Shown one piece after another: positions 51,908 to 63,141 of a stretch of DNA of 64,000 nucleotides (positions are counted from its first letter, which is position 1; each line of letters opens with the position of its first letter). The stretch spans positions 1,368,101-1,432,100 of the forward strand of contig UYJD01000002.1 of the NCBI GenBank assembly GCA_900618795.1. The letters run 5' to 3'. The notes under the pieces were generated by a model. It was given only the letters and a program-made list of their open reading frames with translations, was not told where the DNA came from and made no database searches. A program made the translations under genes and the position numbers. The stretch is from Cyanodermella asteris (taxonomy: Eukaryota > Ascomycota > Lecanoromycetes > Ostropales > Stictidaceae).

Positions 51908-53179
51908 CTAGTACTGGTAGAACTGGCGATGGAGAAAATCTGCGAAGGTAGGATCAAAGGTCGGATCCTGGAATCCCATCGTGCCAGGCAGAGCATGTAC
52001 TGGCTCAACAGCAGCCACAGTCTCACTGCGCTTCACCCGAGTTTGCCGAACGGCCTCTGTATCGTCAACAGAAGCCTCTGTGAAGCCTCTCTTGCGCCTT
52101 GGCAACCGACCGCCAGCTCGACTGCTTGCAGGACCATCCTGTCCTTTGACTTCAGCTTGTAATCGGCGCAGGTCCTGCCAGTCGTCTGCCCTTTTCTTGT
52201 TGTCGCACAGATTCTTGCGAGTGTGAGCCAGAGCAGTTTCAGGCCAGTCGCAAAATTTGTTTAAAGGGCAGTCGCGCAACACGAGCCTGTGAGCGATCGC
52301 TTTGCTCTGAATCAGGCTTTGGGCTACGGCAAAGCAATGATGGGCGAATCTGCCGATGTATGACCCTTCAGCCGTGCCCTTAGGTCGGTCAGGTGTTGTG
52401 GTTGGGCCTCCTCTCGTGTGATGTGCAACTAAGCTTGACAACATGCTCCACGCCGCGTAGCTGATCTTCTTTTCTGCTTCGTCTTTATGATGACGCCCAA
52501 TCGCGGCTTTCCACACGTTGACTTGCCTCACGTCGTCGTTCTCCTCGACTAAGAGGAAGGCACGAGCAAAGAGCATTGCATATGCCCGCATCTGGGAGTC
52601 GTTTCGCGGGAATGTGAGGTCAATGATAGGGTTAGCCTCGGTGGAGCTTTTCGAAATGTCAGCTTTTCTTGCTTGCTGAGCTTCAGAAAACGAGCTGTAC
52701 TTCAAAGTCAAGGACCGACCGTTTTCATCCGTCCATGGAGCCTGCATCTGGCTTTCGAGCACAACGAGCAGATCGCCTGGCGTTGGTTGCGATTGCTGAA
52801 CGCCTGGCGGAGATTGAGCTTGCGATCGAATCTCGAAAGGTCCTTCATCCGAAGCAGTACCCGGGTTCACAAAGACAGTTCTAGTATAATCAATGCTTGG
52901 AACTGTGCTTGTGTCTGTTTGGCGAGGCAACTCAGCCTCGGGTGACTTTAACGACTGAGGAATTCGATGGATGTTCTGATCCGGGGCCATGCCTGCCATC
53001 CAGTCGTTGTTTTGTATGAACGGATCGTCGAGACCAGAGTTTGGCCCAAAGTTAGCACTATAGGTGTCATGAGTACCAAGGTCCAGTCCGGGAAAGGGTT
53101 CACTCAAGAATTCGTCCCATGAGAAGTTAGAATCAGCATAAAACGTATCAGGGAAGTTGTCGTGGTTCTGCGAAGCCAT
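51908..53179 (-). CDS. Family A protein 1 (A1), uncharacterised, probably nuclear
   Basis: A single exon of 423 codons from MASQNHDNF (a longer in-frame start at 53371 lies in low-complexity sequence). The N-terminus is acidic and aromatic (FSWDEFLSEPFPGLDL), resembling a transcription activation segment. A helical domain at about residues 170-330 contains FPRNDSQMRAYAMLFARAFL, then AAWSMLSSLVAHHTRGGP and YIGRFAHHCFAVAQSL. Basic stretches near the C-terminus (GGRLPRRKRGF, RVKRSE) look like nuclear signals. The domain is shared with A2 and A3 further along the same strand, most clearly in PRN(D/N)S and W..L..L..(H/F)H..(R/H)GGP. No known family was recognised and no function is assigned. A TATAAAA-like sequence lies near 53440. 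Confidence 0.72.
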   Translation of the reverse strand: MASQNHDNFPDTFYADSNFSWDEFLSEPFPGLDLGTHDTYSANFGPNSGLDDPFIQNNDWMAGMAPDQNIHRIPQSLKSPEAELPRQTDTSTVPSIDYTRTVFVNPGTASDEGPFEIRSQAQSPPGVQQSQPTPGDLLVVLESQMQAPWTDENGRSLTLKYSSFSEAQQARKADISKSSTEANPIIDLTFPRNDSQMRAYAMLFARAFLLVEENDDVRQVNVWKAAIGRHHKDEAEKKISYAAWSMLSSLVAHHTRGGPTTTPDRPKGTAEGSYIGRFAHHCFAVAQSLIQSKAIAHRLVLRDCPLNKFCDWPETALAHTRKNLCDNKKRADDWQDLRRLQAEVKGQDGPASSRAGGRLPRRKRGFTEASVDDTEAVRQTRVKRSETVAAVEPVHALPGTMGFQDPTFDPTFADFLHRQFYQY

Positions 53180-54398
53180 ATCGACGAGTTCAGAGAACGG
53201 ATCTACCGCGTCGAATGAGCCTTGCAAGTCGAGCAAAGGGTAGAGGGGTGGGGGACGAGCTGAAGAGACAACGATAGAAGTCAATATGAGTTTTGAGAGT
53301 CGTCGTGAGGAGTGAAGAGGAGGGTGAGGGTGAGAGCCAGCAGAAACGAATAGATCGTGGACATCATACACTGACTTGAACGAAGGAGACAGTAAAATTG
53401 GCTGTGTTTACTGAGGCCTCCAAGTTATACAATATTTTTGTTTTATACTGCTGCCAGGTGGAGCCATGATGTCGCTACGATCTTGCAGTATGGACAGACT
53501 GGTTGTTTAGGTTTAGAAAGAGCTTGAGCCAACAAAGCATTTTTGACTACGAATGAAGGTAAAATCTGGCGCGCAATTATGCAGCCATACTCAAGACAAT
53601 AGCGATGTGCGTGTGTTTGACCAAGATATTCTGCAGGTGCATGCGGGAGGTGGAAGACATGCTGGCAGTGGGAAGCCGATCTTTGTTGTCGCTGCTAGCA
53701 GGCGCCGTTCGTGGACAAACGGTAGACGTCCTCAGGGACATCTGGGCGGGGTTAAAGTGCAACGGAACCTGATTGAAGCTCAAAGCTTGATCACGAGTGA
53801 AATTTACTTGCGTGAAAATGTCATTCTCTAGTCATGATGATGATAATTTGTTGTGAATACTTTTATTTTAGATAACTACTACTTAAACGCATTGATTGAT
53901 AAGATATGCACTTGAATCCGATGGACCAATAGAACAGATTCCTGTTCCCAAATGCACTCCAATTGTTTCGCCGCTGTATCCAAGCTGCGAATGCCACGAA
54001 AAACGTGGAATCTCAATCCGTGCGAATAAAGGGGGGGAAAAAAACAAAGAAAGAAAAAAATCCCACTGCTGCGGAATTTTGCGGAGCTTCAAAATCTCCT
54101 GATGGTGCCACAAACAGCCCCGGCTTCTGTTTCAAGATGGTTGTAGATCGAGCAGTTGCGGCGAACTCAGCGGGCTCATCACTGGCCACGACGTCCCGTT
54201 GATGAACGAGGTGAAGATTCGCTTTCTTGGTGAAATTTTGGATGATTGAGCCTAGAAGCGTTGGTTTTGTCCATGCGGCTGCGGCATATGCGCGCTTTGA
54301 AACCAGTTGCCGTACATATCTTGCGTGAAATGTTGGTTTGGCTGATGCTGTAACTGCGGGTTGCCATTGGTCTGGGAAGCAGGCTGTGGCTGGAAAGG
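53180..54398. other. Intergenic region between A1 and B1
   Basis: About 1.2 kb. Next to A1 lie AT-rich sequences suited to its promoter. A purine tract at about 54026-54060 (G7 followed by A-rich DNA) is the only marked compositional feature. No gene was recognised. Confidence 0.5.
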
Positions 54399-55935
54399 TC
54401 AGGCATCGCCGTTTCGCCGCGGGTTTTGTTGCTGTTGCAGTGTTTGTTCAACATTGCGGGGAGCTGTTGGTTGTGCTCGATGGGGTCTGGAGCTGTTGTG
54501 CATTATAGGAGGGCTGTAACCTGGCGGTGGAGGATATGAGGACATGTTGGGAGCCGTGCCCGATCCTGACTGGTGGTTTGAGCTGTGGTTCATTGTAGGA
54601 AAGCCATAATGTGACTGTGGATGGTAGTTGGGTATGTTAGGCACCCTGGCCGAATCTTGCTGTTGACTGAAGACTGGCAAATCTTGGTAGCTCTCGCGGC
54701 CTCTTCCGGCAGCTGGAGCTTGGGGCATGTATGATGCAAGCTGCTGTGTTGGGAGGGCAACATTTCTCTGTTGCCAGGATGCCACCTCATCACCTGTCGC
54801 GCTGCGGTTGCCCATACGGAGAAGTCTGCGGCATATGCTGTGGCGTAATTGACGTAGTCGCCTGTGAAAGCTCTTGATAGGATCTCTGCGACATCGGAGG
54901 AGAATGAACGGACATCGGAGCTCGTGATTGAGTCTGGAAAGCGTCCCTCTGTCTTGTAAGATCGTCGAGCACGTTGCTCAGGCTGTTGGGTTTCGAGGCT
55001 TGCTGAGTACGCTCCTGTCTTGACTCAGAAGCTCTCATGGCAGCCTCGTAATCTATAAGCTCCTCGGGGGTGAGGATCTCCCGCCGTTGCGTCTGTCCCA
55101 TGTGGTATAGAATCTGTAGGCGGAACAAGCCCGTGGCATTATCGACTATTGATCGCCGTTCGTGGCTGCCAAGGCACAGCATCAATGTAAGACGATCAGT
55201 CGAGGACATGGCAGACCAGATGATGAACTGATCGTGCAGATTGGCCCTCCAGAATCTCTCAGCCTTCACTTCTGGTGGAAAGAGCGGCCACTGTTCCTTC
55301 ATAAACCTTTGCAGCTCGACTTGATGACTGTGCGAGCCGCGCAAAGCGGTGGCTGCTGGTGGTCTTGTAGTGCTTGGCCCAGTGTCGGTCTGTCTTGAAT
55401 TCGGCCTACCGCCAGTTGATGCGGTGGCGGCATTCCAGGATCTTTGCGTTCCGACATCATACAGCGGAGCCTCTACCAGAGTATCCGAAATGACCAACGG
55501 AGTCGTTAAAGATCCACCTAGAAGCTTGAGGTTATTGGTAACTCTGTTGACTCTGGGGTTCCTTGGTTGATCTTGTATGTTACCGTTGCGATTGCCGGCT
55601 TCTGGCTGTGGAACCGCACTGAAACCAGCGTTCGACCTGTCTTGCACGGAACCTCGACGCTTGGCAGCGTGCTCCGATACCTTGGATGTTGGATCAAGCT
55701 TCGCTTGATCGCGATTGCGCTTTAATGCTGCGGCCCTGTTAGGAGGCTGAGAGGTCTGCGCGGCTTGTGAGATCTGAGCAGGTTGCGGGGCCTGAGAAGG
55801 CTGTGACATAGCTGTCTGTTTAGTTCTAGAGCCTTGAGGAGTGGGAGTTGGAGCTGAGGCTTGACTCTTCTCCGCCACCCCTGTAGCAATTGCCTTTCTC
55901 GACTGGCCTGGCCTGGAGCTGTAAAAGGAAATCAA
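54399..55935 (-). CDS. Family B protein 1 (B1), Gln/Pro-rich, frameshift near C-terminus
   Basis: Two overlapping frames (55935-54790 and 54815-54399) read as one Gln/Pro/Ser-rich protein; a shift of frame near 54800 is needed to join SPYGQPQRD to ASWQQRNVALPTQQL. No good intron was found there. About 500 residues in all. The first plausible ATG is at about 55809, but the frame is open back to 56002, where it meets the end of A2. The shared B domain (about residues 205-315 counted from 55935) begins QRFMKEQWPLFPPEV and includes AMSSTDRLTLMLCLGSHERR; B2 has YMTEQWPVLSGYQK at the same place, with matching length after it. Q-rich flanks suggest a nuclear regulator (inference). Function unknown. 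Confidence 0.55.
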
Positions 55936-56001
55936 ATTTTGGGGCTCTTCACAGCATCGAACAAACCGAAGAACGAAGACCTTGTTTGAGCGTAGAACGC
56001 G

Positions 56002-57567
56002 CTACAATGCCGTCCAATGTTGATGAAAAGATCCGTGACCGGCAAATACCTGCAGCACAGAAGCCGGTTCATTGGAAAGTGGCCCGCCTCGAGCGTGATA
56101 ATCGAGAAGCTCTGATAACAGCCTCCAGGCAGTCGATTCTGCGAAACGTCCTGTAGCAGAAAGACCAGTCTCCCCTGGGATGGTTGGAAACCGCCGAGCA
56201 AACTGCTGAACCACTTCCCGACTTTCTGTAGCCGCAGGAGCTGCCAATATGGCGCGCTTGAGAAGCAGCGCAATACGCTGTAGCGTAAGTTGGAAATATG
56301 GGTAGGTGTAGTCCGGTTTTGCACACTCTCCAGGCACGGCCCCATGTTCCAGAACAATATTTTTCATATCCTGTCGAGGATCTGAAATAGCCTCGCGAAC
56401 TATCCTCTCATGAACCTCAGCCCAATACGCCTCAGGATTGTGCAGACCGTCTGAGCTTTGTAACGTCCCTGTTGTCTCATCGTTTGTAGTCAGTGAGCCG
56501 CTTTCAGCCTCAGGTGCGACGGCAGCTGCTGGCTGGGCAACAGACTGCTCATGATGAGCAGAACTTGCTTGGGATGGAGAGTGGTTTTGTGTATTCTGTC
56601 GTCCTATCGGAATAATCGACTTCGCCCAGGGATTAGCCCCGAATCCGGCGCCTTGGACACCAGCCTTTGCATTGAAGGCCTTTTCTTGAGGCAGAGCAGC
56701 AAGAGAAGCAGAATAAGTCGCCGGGCTCAGGTGACTTTGCTGCGGTGCTGAAATGGCCGGTGTCAGCCCCACAACATTGTCAGGAATGAAATGGTGCATC
56801 GATAGTGTGGTGACCTCATCAGCGACTTTCACGCCATCAGACTCGTCGCTCGGGGTGCTAATTTCATCGCCTGTCAGGTCAACGACTGCGGAATGAGCTC
56901 CCGTAGACCTGCCATCCATGATAGGGGCACTTTGATCTGAGACAGACGTGTCGGTTCCGCTCACAGGCACCTGCCCGAACGGAGGCCTGTAGTCGCTGTA
57001 TCTCGGACGCTTCTTTGCATGTTCTGAGCTGAATGCAGCATTGTGCTCGGCATCGATGTCCTCGACGATGGTCTCCACGATATTCGTGGAAATATTATCA
57101 TCTCTTTTCCGCTTTCGTGGGGTATCGATTCCACCCGTGGGAATCACTGTCGCCGGCTGGGAATCCGTCCTTGAAGTTTCTGCTGTAGAGACCTCCATGG
57201 CGCTCGCAACTTCGTTGGTGGATGCGTTCCCGAAGGCGTCGAAGGCCGTCTCCAACTCGTCTAATGATGGCGGCAGAATTTCGTCGTTGCCGTTATTGTG
57301 GTAAGCCCAAGCATCATTCTCCGGATCGTTGTCTGTCGCTTGTGATGAAGTTTTCTGTTCATCCTCAAAACCGAAGAAGTTTTGAAAGCCATCATTGTCG
57401 GCTACTGCTGGAGATGGATTCACCTGCAAACCCTGGGAATTGGATTCAATCTCAAAAGTCGAGGTGTTATCCCACCATTTTGAACCGGATGGCGGCTTCG
57501 GGGGTGAATCCATTAGAAAATCTGAGGGTGAGAGGAATGGCTGCTTTGGGGAGCTTGGCTCACTCAT
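56002..57567 (-). CDS. Family A protein 2 (A2), ends at TAG inside the shared domain
   Basis: A 521-codon frame starting MSEPSSPKQPFLSPSDF. The N-terminus has acidic and hydrophobic patches (LPPSLDELETAFDAFG), the middle has a nuclear-type signal (PRKRKRDDN), and the A domain starts near residue 365, with FQLTLQRIALLLKRAIL and TAWRLLSELLDYHARGGP. TAG at 56002-56004 comes right after GSFHQHWTAL, a position where A1 (GRFAHHCFAV) and A3 (GNWQKHFDACY) continue. The frame stays open beyond it into B1. Three readings are possible: a nonsense change, a 48-nt in-frame intron (56002-56049, GTATTT..TTGTAG) that would fuse A2 to B1, or a natural shorter end. Confidence 0.68.
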   Translation of the reverse strand: MSEPSSPKQPFLSPSDFLMDSPPKPPSGSKWWDNTSTFEIESNSQGLQVNPSPAVADNDGFQNFFGFEDEQKTSSQATDNDPENDAWAYHNNGNDEILPPSLDELETAFDAFGNASTNEVASAMEVSTAETSRTDSQPATVIPTGGIDTPRKRKRDDNISTNIVETIVEDIDAEHNAAFSSEHAKKRPRYSDYRPPFGQVPVSGTDTSVSDQSAPIMDGRSTGAHSAVVDLTGDEISTPSDESDGVKVADEVTTLSMHHFIPDNVVGLTPAISAPQQSHLSPATYSASLAALPQEKAFNAKAGVQGAGFGANPWAKSIIPIGRQNTQNHSPSQASSAHHEQSVAQPAAAVAPEAESGSLTTNDETTGTLQSSDGLHNPEAYWAEVHERIVREAISDPRQDMKNIVLEHGAVPGECAKPDYTYPYFQLTLQRIALLLKRAILAAPAATESREVVQQFARRFPTIPGETGLSATGRFAESTAWRLLSELLDYHARGGPLSNEPASVLQVFAGHGSFHQHWTAL

Positions 57568-58318
57568 CGCGACTAATAGTAGTCGGTATTTGCGGTGCCG
57601 AACACAACAAGGAGGGATATTGATTCAAGATGTGATCTTCGTGAGCAAGATCGCGGTGTTCCTGGAGGAGAGTAGGTTGAGAGGTTACGTCGATGATGTG
57701 AGGGGCAAGTGTGGGAGTGTTATGTAGGCGTGAGAGTCGGCGAGGAAGAAAGTGACCGAGCAAGCGGGTGAGGCTACATACAAAGACAGGCTGCGTAATA
57801 CCGCCATGCAGGCAAGTGTGAAGCAGATCTTCAATATGTCATGACACCTTGTTCGGGGTGACCGTGTTTGTGCAGGCCCATTCACTGGTTTTAGAGGCGT
57901 CACTCTTCGGCGGGTAGTAATAGACCCTCTCGGCAGTGTCAGCGAGTTTCCTTAGCTAAGTCCCCCAGTAAGTAGCCTTGGAAGTAGCTCAAGCACCTGG
58001 GTAAGTCCGTCAGTACCGTCCAAGCGACCATCTTGGCAAGTACCATCACAGTGCAAGCGCCTGTACGGTCACGGTCATCCGGTCGTTCCAGCGCGCCAGT
58101 GTCACGCAGCGATATCAGTCTGTCGCCAAGTCCAGCTTCACCCACTACGACAGAGCGGCACATCTGGATAAAACTGTGGGAACATCATTTATACTCGCTT
58201 CGTCGATGCTAAATTTCTGGCTGAACAATACTAGGATCTGGATGCAGTCCCTGCGAGCGCGCAAAATCAAAATTATCCAGTGGATCAAGCTGCGGCTCGG
58301 CCAATTCGCCTGGCAGAC
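57568..58318. other. Intergenic region between A2 and B2
   Basis: About 750 bases with the A2 promoter and the B2 3' flank. Only short frames occur, and no recognisable element was seen. Confidence 0.5.
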
Positions 58319-60364
58319 TCACGTCCCAAAAGGATCTTCCTGTGGGGGCAAGATGTCGAATGGCGGCGGCTGGTTGGTTGCGTCTGGCCTTGGAGCCTGG
58401 AGGTGCCCTGTTTCTGCTTGCGCGGGAAAGTGCTCGGCCGTAGACATAGAATTTGTGAGATGAGGCCGACACTGAGGAAAGCGATTGTCCGGTAGCGGAT
58501 ACTGATTGTTTGGCACTGCTGTCGACTGAGTATCCTGAGGCCACGTGCCCATTGAAAATTCTAGATGCGTTATCAAAGGCGCTGTTGGGCGATAGCCAGG
58601 GTCCTGCTGTGTCTGAGGCATACCGTGTCTCGCGAAACAGGTGCCATGGGGCTGCGGTATTGGCGTGAAATTAACATCCATTCCCGGCCACACCTGCTGT
58701 CCATTTTGCTGGTGAGTTCGATCGTTCGACTGAAAAGACGAATTCGAAACCATAGATTCAGATAGCATTGCTGACCGTTGCATTCCTAGGTTTGCATCTG
58801 GCGGCGTACAGCCGTACATCTGATTTTTGGTGATTAGCCGTCGCATGTCAAAGTTTGAATTTGAAGGCGTCGAGCCGTAAGAATGATTTTGGGAGGCGTC
58901 TAAAGATAATCTAGGTCCATAACCTTGATTCGTGGCCTGTTGCTGATCCGAATCGCGATATACAGGCTTTTGATGAGGGCGGAAAGAGTCCGGCAGCCCC
59001 GGATGGCAGTACTGCTGACAATGATGCTGTTGGTGACAATGCGCCTGAGAGCCGAGGAACGGGAGCTCTCGCACACTTTGTTGAAGGTTTGAAACCTGAG
59101 CAGCCTGCTGTGGCACGTTTTGGTGATACACGTCCTGCATTGGCACCCGTCCGGTTTCTTGCTCGGAAGCATGCAGGGCGTGGAGCACCGCAGCTGGGAG
59201 TTGCTCAAGCACTCTGGTGCGGCGGTCTCGAGTCATGGAAGATAGAAGACGGTGTCCATATTGAGGTTGCACTTTCGCAACCAAGTCTTGTAAAAAACTT
59301 TCCTCACAATTCTCGACAATATAACGACAAGAATCGCTGTCCAGAAGATGAAAAATGTGCGGACTCTGATGATGAATATCGGCCGCTTTGAAGACCTGTG
59401 TTTTTTGGTACCCGCTTAGCACAGGCCATTGTTCCGTCATGTAGCGGGTTATAGCGTGACGAAACTGCCAGAGGTCGAGACCCTCGAAAGCTGGAGGCGA
59501 AATCGAACTCCCGAGCTCCGGTTCTGGGACTGGCTCGGGGATTGCATTGACATACCGATGCTTTCGACCCTTGTTCTGTGCAGGCTTCGAGACACCGTGG
59601 GCAGATTTGTGCGCACTTTGTCTCTTACGCGTACTCTTGGCGTTTCCAGACTTTCTGCCCGTGGATTGAGCTCGCCTGAGCTTTCCGCGAAAGGATTGGG
59701 GCTCGTGGGAACCAGATGCGCCGTCTGCAGAGAGTTCAGGCTCAGTCTGAGTACCAACGTGCTTGTTTACTGTTCGACTGGACTTTTGACTCGGAGCATC
59801 GGCCATATCACCATCGTCTTCATGGAGCTGTGCAACAGAATGTCTGATAGGTCGGGAAGATGGCGTTTGATAGAACGCGGTCTCGCCTTTCTTGCCCTTG
59901 TCGTCTTGGTTGTTCTCGAAATCACCCCAAGTAATATCCAAAAGTCTGCCATCGTCCGCAGCAGTATGCTCTGCGTTTTCCGTACCGACAGACTCTCTGC
60001 TGCTCGCAGCAACAGGTAGCGACGGCGAGGTATGATTGCGAGGGTTGAACAGCTGGTGCGTCGGTTGATCATCGAAAAGCTCAACATTGTCTGTTCCCGG
60101 GCTAGTCTCTGCGACTGTCTGAGATGATCTCGTTTGGCTCGGAAGAGCGTCGTTTTCTTGCTGCGCAGATCCTTGTCCGTCCACAAGCATCTGAGAGCTG
60201 GCGGCGATGGGCGCAGACATGAGTTCTTCGAGCGCCGCTTCAGAAAAATCGAGGATTTCGCTAGAATGCTGCAAAGCGAGATCCCAGGTTTCAGCCGAGT
60301 GAAGGTCGTCTTGGGACGGTTCCATGATTTCGGCGAAGTTTTGTGGCTTACTTTGTTCGGCCAT
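58319..60364 (-). CDS. Family B protein 2 (B2), uncharacterised, probably nuclear
   Basis: A single exon of 681 codons from MAEQSKPQNFAEIMEPSQDD. The N-terminus has an acidic-hydrophobic segment (SSEILDFSEAALEELMS). A strongly basic stretch at about 225-275 (KSTRKRQSAHKSAHG, QNKGRKHRYV) suggests nuclear location and DNA or RNA contact. The B domain follows (about 300-410): FRHAITRYMTEQWPVLSGYQ, then YIVENCEESFLQDLV and LHALHASEQETGRV. The C-terminal third is Gln/His/Pro-rich. It aligns by eye with B1 along the whole B domain without large gaps. No known family was recognised. It stands between A3 and A2, all on the minus strand. Confidence 0.72.
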   Translation of the reverse strand: MAEQSKPQNFAEIMEPSQDDLHSAETWDLALQHSSEILDFSEAALEELMSAPIAASSQMLVDGQGSAQQENDALPSQTRSSQTVAETSPGTDNVELFDDQPTHQLFNPRNHTSPSLPVAASSRESVGTENAEHTAADDGRLLDITWGDFENNQDDKGKKGETAFYQTPSSRPIRHSVAQLHEDDGDMADAPSQKSSRTVNKHVGTQTEPELSADGASGSHEPQSFRGKLRRAQSTGRKSGNAKSTRKRQSAHKSAHGVSKPAQNKGRKHRYVNAIPEPVPEPELGSSISPPAFEGLDLWQFRHAITRYMTEQWPVLSGYQKTQVFKAADIHHQSPHIFHLLDSDSCRYIVENCEESFLQDLVAKVQPQYGHRLLSSMTRDRRTRVLEQLPAAVLHALHASEQETGRVPMQDVYHQNVPQQAAQVSNLQQSVRELPFLGSQAHCHQQHHCQQYCHPGLPDSFRPHQKPVYRDSDQQQATNQGYGPRLSLDASQNHSYGSTPSNSNFDMRRLITKNQMYGCTPPDANLGMQRSAMLSESMVSNSSFQSNDRTHQQNGQQVWPGMDVNFTPIPQPHGTCFARHGMPQTQQDPGYRPTAPLITHLEFSMGTWPQDTQSTAVPNNQYPLPDNRFPQCRPHLTNSMSTAEHFPAQAETGHLQAPRPDATNQPPPFDILPPQEDPFGT

Positions 60365-61233
60365 CACAAGTTTGGAAGACCCGAGTCGCGGGCGCAAGTG
60401 GTGAAGACAGCGACCGGAAGATACCCAGAAAGACTAGAACAACAAGTATGGGCGGGGGGACAAAGCGTACGTATACAGGCGGAGGACTGTCTGCCGCCGT
60501 GCGCAGATGCTGCAGGCTCTGTGCCAAAAGCAAGACCTTGCTGAATACGGATGTGTTCTGCTTGTTGCGTGGTTGATTGAGATTCAGAGTTGGTAAGGAC
60601 GATGTGTGTGATGATGGGAAAGATGAAAACCAAATAGTGTGCCAATTGTATCTGCAAAGATCACGTCTGGCCACGGTGCAAAAGCCTAGCAAAAATGAAA
60701 ATGGGCGAGCAAGTAACCACGGTCGCAGGACGCATATTTTGCTACATTGCCAGCTATTTTATAGCAGCAGTCACGATGGTGAACGAAGGGAGAAGCAAGA
60801 ACGAACAAGCTACGGTTAGGACCTCATCTGCAGCCTTGGAAGAATACAACGGTACCAAGGACCAAAGCCTCGAGAGCATGGTTTGGCACGGGGTTCGCAC
60901 TTGAGCTGCGTGGAAATGTTTGTGGTATGTTACCAAAGAGTGCCAACTATGCTTCGTCGATCCTACACCTATGGGTGCCCATGAGATGATATTATAGGAG
61001 CCGAAGAGTTCCTCGCGGGTGAAAACTACATGGCTTTGCTCTTTCGCATCGAAGAAATGGGACGAGAATGTTGCAATATGGATTCATACCTGTGACGCAG
61101 ACCGTATGTGTTTATCTATGATCCTGTAAGCTGTTTTCTATCCTCTCGCTGTGAGGATAGTCCACTGGCATGCCTGCTTGGATCGAGCAAGCGTGCCGGT
61201 CTGCTCATTTCCTGCCAGTAAAAGGACGCTCTA
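60365..61233. other. Intergenic region between B2 and A3
   Basis: About 870 bases holding the B2 promoter and A3 3' flank. A TATAAAA-like sequence on the minus strand near 60757 is about 395 bases from the B2 start, rather far for a core element. Nothing else was recognised. Confidence 0.5.
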
Positions 61234-63141
61234 CTACCCATTGCCCTGATGGCGGCGGGCGGCAAAGTGTCCATTCGCTGGCCCAAAGTTCCCTGGTTGT
61301 CGGTTAACGGGCTGACGTCCACGCCCGTGGTCGTCGTTCTGCGTCAAATGGTCCATGTCGTTGACCATTGGATAGTTCTGGCCATAATTGGCCCGGAACC
61401 GCTGTGCATCACGAGTGACTCCGGGCGCGAACAGTGGCGCTTGGGGGCTCCACTGCATCGGCATCGGGCCGTAGCCAGGCGCAGAAACGTTACCAAAAAG
61501 TCGAGCCTGCTCAAATGGGTCGTGGTTGTACTGGGCAGGAGCTGAAGCTGGAGCTGGAGCTGCTGGAGCGCGTGGTTGAGCTCTGCTCGGGTCATATCCA
61601 TAGGGCTGGAGGCCGGCGCGGGCGAAATTATTTCCGTTCACGTGACCGTCAAGCCCGACGTCTTGCTCCAGGTATGCGGGAAAACTACGATCGTGGAAAT
61701 CACGCCTTTGTGTATGAGCCGCACCAGGTCCAGTCTGGTTCAGATTTGTACCCACGGTTTGTACAGCCTGCCTCGATTCCGGAGCAAATCGCACCTTCTT
61801 GATGACGTGCGCGTTCGCTTGGTAAGCGTGCTGGTCGGAAGGTCCTTCAGATCCGTCTAACTCTGGCTCTGGTTCCGAGTCTGACCCTGCCTGAGGACTG
61901 GCACCGCGACCTTGAGCCTTCCGTTTCCGAGCCGCAACTGTCTTATAACCACGATTCCCATTGTTGGCCTTATTGTTCAAGACTCTTTCCTCGCGGTGAT
62001 CAGGGTTTGCAATGGTGAACGCAAGCGAATCCACAGCATCTGTCATAGCGTGGTTGCATTGCGTTTTGTGATGGTAGTACAGGTTATAGCAAGCATCAAA
62101 ATGCTTCTGCCAGTTACCTTTGAATCTTCCCGGGCTCTCGTGACCGCCCGTTTTGACTGTCTGAGGTCCACCATGTATAAAATGAAACAGCATCAGCTTA
62201 TGAATGACTCTCCACGCTCCAAATTCGACGGACCGCATCGAGCTCTCCATTTCCAAGAACTTGCGATATCTTTCTTGTAGTTTGTCGTTATCTTTCAGTC
62301 CGTCTGTGTTCAAAAAGGCCATCATCATCTTCCGCACAAACAGTATCAACTCGGAATTGTTCCTGGGCGCAGTTGGATTTACAACCGCTTTGGGGTCCCA
62401 GCGCCGCTCTTTGCCGTTCACAAAGTCCAACTCGACTTCACGCCATGTATTGAACTTGAGTTCGGGCGCTTGGTTATGCTCGAGGTCATCAATGAGACTT
62501 TGAAACACAACCTTGGGCTCATTAGAAGGATTCGTGGGGTTCGTGGTGGCAGCCTTCGGTATTGGTGGTTGAGGGATGGACTCCCTCACCGCCTGAAGCG
62601 GAGGCAGAGGATCGACAGCAGCAGTTGGAGAAGAAGAAGGACCACCGGATAAGATGGACCCGTTCAACAGGTTGGCTTGACTAACCTTGCCGGACTGCGA
62701 CTCCGAAGCCGGGACCTGGACTGGATCTGGAGCTGTACCCGAAACTGGAGCTGGAGCTGAAGCCAGAGCCAAAGAGTCAGCGGTAGGGTTAGAAGCAGGC
62801 GCAGATGCAGTGGCAGGGAACGGACCAGGTGAGCCGGCAGCCGGAGCTGAAAACGCTGAAGCTGGAGCTGGGCGGGATGAACCGGGAGCTGAAACCGAGA
62901 TCTCCAAAGCCGGAGCCGGAGAACCTGGAGCTACAGCTTGAGCGTCAACTGGAGCTGAAGCAGGCATAACACCAGCTTCAGGTCCGCAAAAAGTCTCGGT
63001 TACATCTCGATCTCCGAGTGATCCCGGTGCGGATTGGCCGAGACCCGTGAGCACTTCGCGACGAACGTGCAGTGCTTGCTCTTGAACATCCTTGGTGCGA
63101 TCTGGGAGTGGCGATGGTGTCGGATGATTGCGCTCCGACAT
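61234..63141 (-). CDS. Family A protein 3 (A3), Pro/Ala-repeat N-terminus
   Basis: A single exon of 635 codons from MSERNHPTPSPLPDRTKD. Residues about 58-160 are a Pro/Ala/Ser low-complexity segment encoded by a degenerate DNA repeat. The A domain lies at about 250-400: NPTAPRNNSELILFVRKM, GAWRVIHKLMLFHFIHGGP, FKGNWQKHFDACYNLYYHHK. A basic signal follows (AARKRKAQGRG), then a Pro/Gln/Asn-rich tail with a second Ala/Pro run. The PRNNSEL..AFL stretch matches PRNDSQM..AFL of A1, and HGGP matches RGGP of A1 and A2. Function unknown; nuclear regulator is an inference from composition. A TATATA box on the same strand is at 63293-63298. Confidence 0.73.
   Translation of the reverse strand: MSERNHPTPSPLPDRTKDVQEQALHVRREVLTGLGQSAPGSLGDRDVTETFCGPEAGVMPASAPVDAQAVAPGSPAPALEISVSAPGSSRPAPASAFSAPAAGSPGPFPATASAPASNPTADSLALASAPAPVSGTAPDPVQVPASESQSGKVSQANLLNGSILSGGPSSSPTAAVDPLPPLQAVRESIPQPPIPKAATTNPTNPSNEPKVVFQSLIDDLEHNQAPELKFNTWREVELDFVNGKERRWDPKAVVNPTAPRNNSELILFVRKMMMAFLNTDGLKDNDKLQERYRKFLEMESSMRSVEFGAWRVIHKLMLFHFIHGGPQTVKTGGHESPGRFKGNWQKHFDACYNLYYHHKTQCNHAMTDAVDSLAFTIANPDHREERVLNNKANNGNRGYKTVAARKRKAQGRGASPQAGSDSEPEPELDGSEGPSDQHAYQANAHVIKKVRFAPESRQAVQTVGTNLNQTGPGAAHTQRRDFHDRSFPAYLEQDVGLDGHVNGNNFARAGLQPYGYDPSRAQPRAPAAPAPASAPAQYNHDPFEQARLFGNVSAPGYGPMPMQWSPQAPLFAPGVTRDAQRFRANYGQNYPMVNDMDHLTQNDDHGRGRQPVNRQPGNFGPANGHFAARRHQGNG
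62660..62970 (-). repeat. Degenerate GCTCCAGCT/GGAGCTGAA coding repeat in A3
   Basis: The plus strand repeatedly shows GGAGCTGAA and close variants over about 300 bases. On the minus strand it encodes Ala-Pro-rich sequence (for example SAPGSSRPAPASAFSAPAAG). Such in-frame repeats expand and contract by slippage; the copy number seen here may differ between isolates. Confidence 0.6.

Follow-up and report, generated by a model that had tools for sequence, protein, structure and literature searches.

An array of five minus-strand open frames, in the order A1-B1-A2-B2-A3, lies at one end of the window analysed here, the 64,000-nucleotide stretch 1368101-1432100 of contig C6 in the 28.5-Mb genome (25 contigs) of Cyanodermella asteris. 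The frames carry two helical domains, A and B, after which they are named. The initial annotation had described five genes; the five open frames are all present, but A2 and B2 look like halves of one interrupted gene. Unless a contig or locus is named, coordinates are window positions.

61234-63141, minus strand: A1, open frame of 635 amino acids; N-terminal third rich in Ala, Pro and Ser; basic clusters C-terminal of the A domain
61942-62481, minus strand: A domain of A1; 233.5 bits against the five-member profile, of which A1 is a training member; pairwise matches to A4 and A5 are independent of the profile
58319-60364, minus strand: B1, open frame of 681 amino acids; N-terminus acidic, followed by basic clusters, the B domain and a tail rich in Gln and His
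59141-59473, minus strand: B domain of B1; above the Pfam MgtE_N cut-off if scanned alone
56002-57567, minus strand: A2, open frame of 521 amino acids; acidic at the N-terminus, with an RKRKR cluster and, at its end, an incomplete and diverged A domain
54790-55935, minus strand: B2, open frame of 381 amino acids sharing the frame of A2; contains the B domain
55000-55329, minus strand: B domain of B2
51908-53179, minus strand: A3, 423 amino acids from the ATG at 53179; RRKR cluster
52178-52726, minus strand: A domain of A3; 199.0 bits against the five-member profile, of which A3 is a training member; the pairwise match to A4 is independent of the profile

The open frames of B1 and A3 extend further upstream (58319-60397 and 51908-53371, respectively); the ATGs at 60364 and 53179 are the likelier starts. 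The 3' end of B1 is uncertain, as a GTGAGT donor at 58322 overlaps its stop; a 72-nt intron or a frame change within 58250-58325 would lengthen the protein. A stretch of N starts at the window end, upstream of A1 (L009:101-2898).

The A domain and its second cluster

The A domain is about 175 residues long and is common to six genes, which form two clusters on a single contig; A2 has the second half only. This grouping is well supported. In pairwise phmmer comparisons A1 and A3 matched with E values of 0.009-0.014 and A2 and A3 with 0.12-0.14; a match between A1 and A2 was not reported. A profile built from A1 and A3 retrieved A2 marginally, as the top non-member among 517 frames of the window (9.1 bits, E 0.029). 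With the profile of A1, A3, A4, A5 and A6, the score of A2 rose to 27.8 bits (E 7e-8). The profile searches thus uphold the earlier claim of a domain shared by A1, A2 and A3, except that the match of A2 is confined to roughly the second half of the domain (positions 84-152 of the 175 in the profile).

The three additional members, A4, A5 and A6, were overlooked in the initial annotation and were obtained by a genome search. All three are plus-strand genes of this contig, located around 1602.7, 1605.6 and 1608.5 kb and near frames that we take, from their sequences, to be acid-phosphatase-like and isopentenyl-diphosphate-isomerase-like.

L007:8250-9965, L008:1017-2858 and L008:3750-5173 (C6, about 1602-1609 kb), plus strand: second A cluster, three genes

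All five other members retrieved with A4 sit on this contig; the own-genome search scores the best candidates only, so that distant members may escape it. A profile scan of C6:1434001-1654000, runs of N excepted, gave neither additional A members nor a convincing third B (next best match E 0.17). A6 enters a long stretch of N, within which further members could lie. Weak matches on contigs C19 (E 0.27) and C7 (E 1.87) were rejected, as they reached no more than 0.7 bits against the profile; by their sequences, we judge the first to be a coiled coil of the SMC type and the second to be antisense to a JmjC protein.

No Pfam family was found above cut-off for the A domain in any of the six members, and NCBIfam listed none for the five members scanned. 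The six-sequence A profile matched no PDB chain at E values up to 10; the whole of A1 matched two chains (E 0.37 and 0.41), both outside the A domain. A set of 5.8 billion proteins contained no relative of whole A1, the A4 domain or the B1 domain at the thresholds used; few fungal proteins may be included in it, so that rarity is not implied. Viral contigs scanned with the B pair and A4, and prokaryote contigs scanned with A4, likewise gave no relatives, in collections that are possibly poor in fungal proteins. Among the open-access papers listed in literature searches, none dealt with these domains in fungi; such work may nevertheless be in print. A similar helical domain may occur in uncharacterised ascomycete proteins, in which a Pro motif, then an A-W helix and lastly an N-K...N motif follow one another. 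The earlier statement that no described family has this plan stands for A in Pfam, NCBIfam and the PDB; B points weakly to a known kind of helical superhelix (see below).

A2 and B2 as a probable interrupted gene

A2 and B2 are in one frame with a single TAG between them, and the similarity of A2 to the A domain continues over this TAG. Both observations are well supported.

56002-56004, minus strand: TAG between A2 and B2; same-frame A-domain similarity goes on past it
55921-56142, minus strand: A-domain similarity of A2 across the TAG; 37.0 bits when the stop is treated as X, against a profile made without A2
54252-54815, minus strand: likely shifted-frame continuation of the Gln/Pro-rich tail of B2; in-frame TGA at 54399-54401, the part after it judged by eye

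A genome search with A4 reported A2 with one internal TAG (E 0.003). The part of A2 upstream of the stop scored 30.6 bits with the A profile; addition of the in-frame continuation raised this to 42.7 bits, compared with 34.1 and 31.7 bits for the other two frames. The in-frame gain was matched by none of 1000 shuffles and by one of 3000 stop-free window pieces taken outside the array. A previous control, with pieces from almost all of the window, gave 17 of 1000 and was replaced because A1 and A3 lie there.

The charge of the N-termini was calculated over the first 150 residues. It is net acidic in all seven other proteins (the starts of A4-A6 being uncertain), but +14 in B2, so that the acidic N-termini ascribed earlier to every protein of the array were found in all except this one. 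Only 192 nt separate the A2 stop from the first in-frame ATG of B2 (55809), compared with gaps of 869 nt between A1 and B1 and 751 nt between B1 and A2. Because of the shared frame, the non-acidic start and this short distance, B2 probably makes up the latter half of the A2 gene. Further downstream, the coding signal is lost from the B2 frame near 54800 and goes on in another frame, through and beyond the TGA at 54399; from about 54990 to 54720 a third frame scores equally well or better in codon use. The shifted frame and the TGA are likely to be further lesions or unrecognised introns. The simplest reading of A2-B2 is that of an A-B gene in decay.

Five separate functional genes, with A2 a truncated A protein ending at the TAG and B2 an independent protein starting at 55809, would account for the fact that each is an open frame on its own, and also for the fall in codon scores at the junction. 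The frame shared over the TAG, the A-domain similarity beyond it, the short distance, the basic start of B2 and the lesions in its tail make this arrangement unlikely, if still worth keeping in mind. The codon scores also fail to support an interrupted gene as such: in the A2 frame they stay near zero over the TAG (-0.8 to 2.6 per 150 nt, from 56187 to 55798), as obtained with a training set of 14 frames, three of them from the array and most of them unverified. It is also possible that sequencing errors at the TAG, or odd introns, account for the breaks. Among 18 GT-AG candidates for an intron over the TAG (about 45-200 nt), none of the 14 with the best donors combined a normal donor with a CTRAY branch site.

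The B domain and its predicted fold

The B1-B2 alignment extends over about 105 residues from M-x-EQWP on, with three short gaps. When the B2 piece was shuffled 2000 times, the score of the two domain pieces was never attained, and a common domain of about 105 residues is probable from the sequences. Several results weigh on the other side. With the proteins at full length, the score was attained in 10 of 500 shuffles; the domain limits had been set by eye ahead of the shuffles; and in genome searches the B1 query did not retrieve B2 at E 0.001, nor the B2 query B1 at E 10. The pairwise phmmer E value was 1.9. The shared B domain proposed in the initial annotation is thus favoured by the domain shuffles, but not by the full-length or search results. 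Together with the cross-matching between helical-repeat families described below, these results would suit a B1-B2 likeness due to chance or to convergent helical composition, with A as the sole family here. Given the domain shuffles and a match of this length that includes M-x-EQWP and needs only three short gaps, we consider that explanation distinctly improbable.

The B1 sequence and the predicted B fold point weakly to a helical superhelix of the MgtE_N/FliG kind, and one of the two domains may perhaps resemble in shape the arm that a magnesium channel of bacteria extends into the cytoplasm. With the Pfam model MgtE_N (PF03448; cut-off 25.9 bits), the B1 domain alone scored 28.9 bits, the genome match 28.6 bits and the whole of B1 24.7 bits. 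At E values up to 1, MgtE_N was the only Pfam family found for B1, and for B2 only TIMELESS and DUF2630 were found, both below cut-off. An assignment of B2 to TIMELESS (PF04821) was rejected (21.5 bits for the whole protein, 14.6 bits for the domain; cut-off 25).

The fold assignment also has results to set against it. B2 has no MgtE_N match in Pfam. Foldseek with the predicted B fold gave a best E value of only 0.14, and row 4 and most of rows 7-20 were PUF proteins. A protein of the same genome (C24:54415-54669, L041), which we take from its sequence to be of the Pumilio type, scored 21.7 bits with the MgtE_N model, a cross-match between helical-repeat families, and the likeness of B1 to MgtE_N may be a generic match of this sort. 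A B profile matched no PDB chain at E values up to 10, the profile having been built on a poor two-sequence alignment.

The nearest systems for B are the MgtE N-terminal domain (PF03448) and the ARM-like domains of FliG and FlgY/FlbB. The MgtE magnesium transporter is defined by a CBS pair and a membrane domain in one protein. In contrast, Pfam at E values up to 1 gives B1 and B2 neither a CBS nor a membrane family, and hydrophobic segments are absent, the 19-residue hydropathy peaking at 0.97 and 1.18; the protein that contains the B domain is eukaryotic and has basic clusters of the nuclear type. B resembles Pumilio/PUF proteins in its predicted helical superhelix and in the Foldseek rows that they occupy, but B1 and B2 have no PUF family in Pfam, and B is a single short domain rather than a series of repeats, of which PUF proteins have eight.

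Origin, composition and possible function

Repeated duplication of an A+B module had been proposed earlier from the alternating order. A recent local duplication would readily give the order A1-B1-A2-B2-A3 on a single strand, and we regard it as very improbable in view of the relationships within the family. Within the A family, A4 and A5 are the closest to each other (phmmer E 1e-26). A1 has its best partners in these two (E about 1e-12), some 172-175 kb distant, rather than in A2 or A3. A-domain identities to A4 are only 23-33%. The A-family tree has supports of 58-60 and terminal branches of 0.7-2.1 substitutions per site. No repeated DNA of at least 20 nt links the array genes, and no B was found in the readable part of the second cluster. 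Because A1 is nearest to A4 and A5, the supports are low, the branches are long and linking repeats are lacking, the alternation is no evidence of recent module duplication. The A/B family appears to be small, old, lineage-specific and uncharacterised. The sole repeat family found is inside A1, an imperfect Ala/Pro-rich repeat whose 37-nt unit occurs five times with an identity of at least 61% (62703-62961, 61530-61566).

Each of the eight proteins tested has at least one basic cluster of the nuclear type, and the highest 19-residue Kyte-Doolittle mean among them is 1.18; both the nuclear-type signals and the lack of membrane segments claimed in the initial annotation were thus confirmed. This composition suggests nuclear proteins. 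No known DNA-binding domain (zinc cluster, bZIP, HMG etc.) was found in Pfam, at E values up to 1 for the five window proteins and up to 5 for A4-A6. The idea that B1 shares an N-terminus with the A proteins by common descent was rejected, as none of 21 N-terminal pairs was convincing (the lowest, B1-A4, 11 of 400 shuffles; B1-A2, 379 of 400).

The array may belong to a fungal family, old and restricted to its lineage, whose members are putative scaffolds or co-regulators in the nucleus, a proposal for and against which we find the balance about even. A2-B2 would be one A-B gene, interrupted, and a decaying copy. A and B would formerly have been in one chain and would probably still meet as separate proteins, A1 being encoded beside B1; since A2 and B2 share one frame and A1 and B1 are neighbours, we infer that A and B work together. 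The A/B partnership suggested earlier gains some added weight from the resemblance of A2-B2 to one split gene. The helical domains would make protein-protein contacts, B as an MgtE_N/FliG-like superhelix and not as part of an ion transporter; judging from composition, the acidic N-terminal parts would recruit partners and the basic clusters would carry the proteins to the nucleus. Also against this proposal, the structure model of the A domain was poor and unusable (pLDDT 48.5), and the evidence is drawn from one genome.

A2-B2 could also be one working gene, the stop being removed or recoded in RNA through an unusual intron, readthrough or A-to-I editing, with short A and long A-B forms. The frame and the domain similarity do run on through the TAG, and premature-stop editing, of UAG stops in particular, is reported for fruiting bodies of Sordariomycetes and Pezizomycetes (PMC7306014). 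Decay explains the shift of frame near 54800 and the TGA at 54399 better than recoding does, and we assign recoding only a slight chance. It is fainter still that the UAG acts as a switch in a single functional gene, giving A only by default and A-B upon RNA recoding, with B a eukaryotic nuclear MgtE_N superhelix docking onto A.

Ten neighbouring frames were scanned; some match ordinary families, including XAP5, BCCIP, chorismate mutase and HAD hydrolase. The open frame at 31186-33477 (minus strand, 763 amino acids) has no Pfam match at E 0.001, and the frame at 48714-49358 matches a major royal jelly protein (MRJP) domain with 41 bits.

Uncharacterised lineage-specific families are numerous in fungal genomes, and the array alone is one such case. 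If the reading of an interrupted A-B gene within an old family is right, there is an unnamed fungal family of six paralogues for which no Pfam or PDB relative was found, and the split A-B gene ties it to a second domain of possibly MgtE_N-like fold. A1 and B1 would then be a testable partner pair, and B a possible case of a eukaryote employing, for something other than transport, a fold that occurs in channels and flagellar rings of bacteria.
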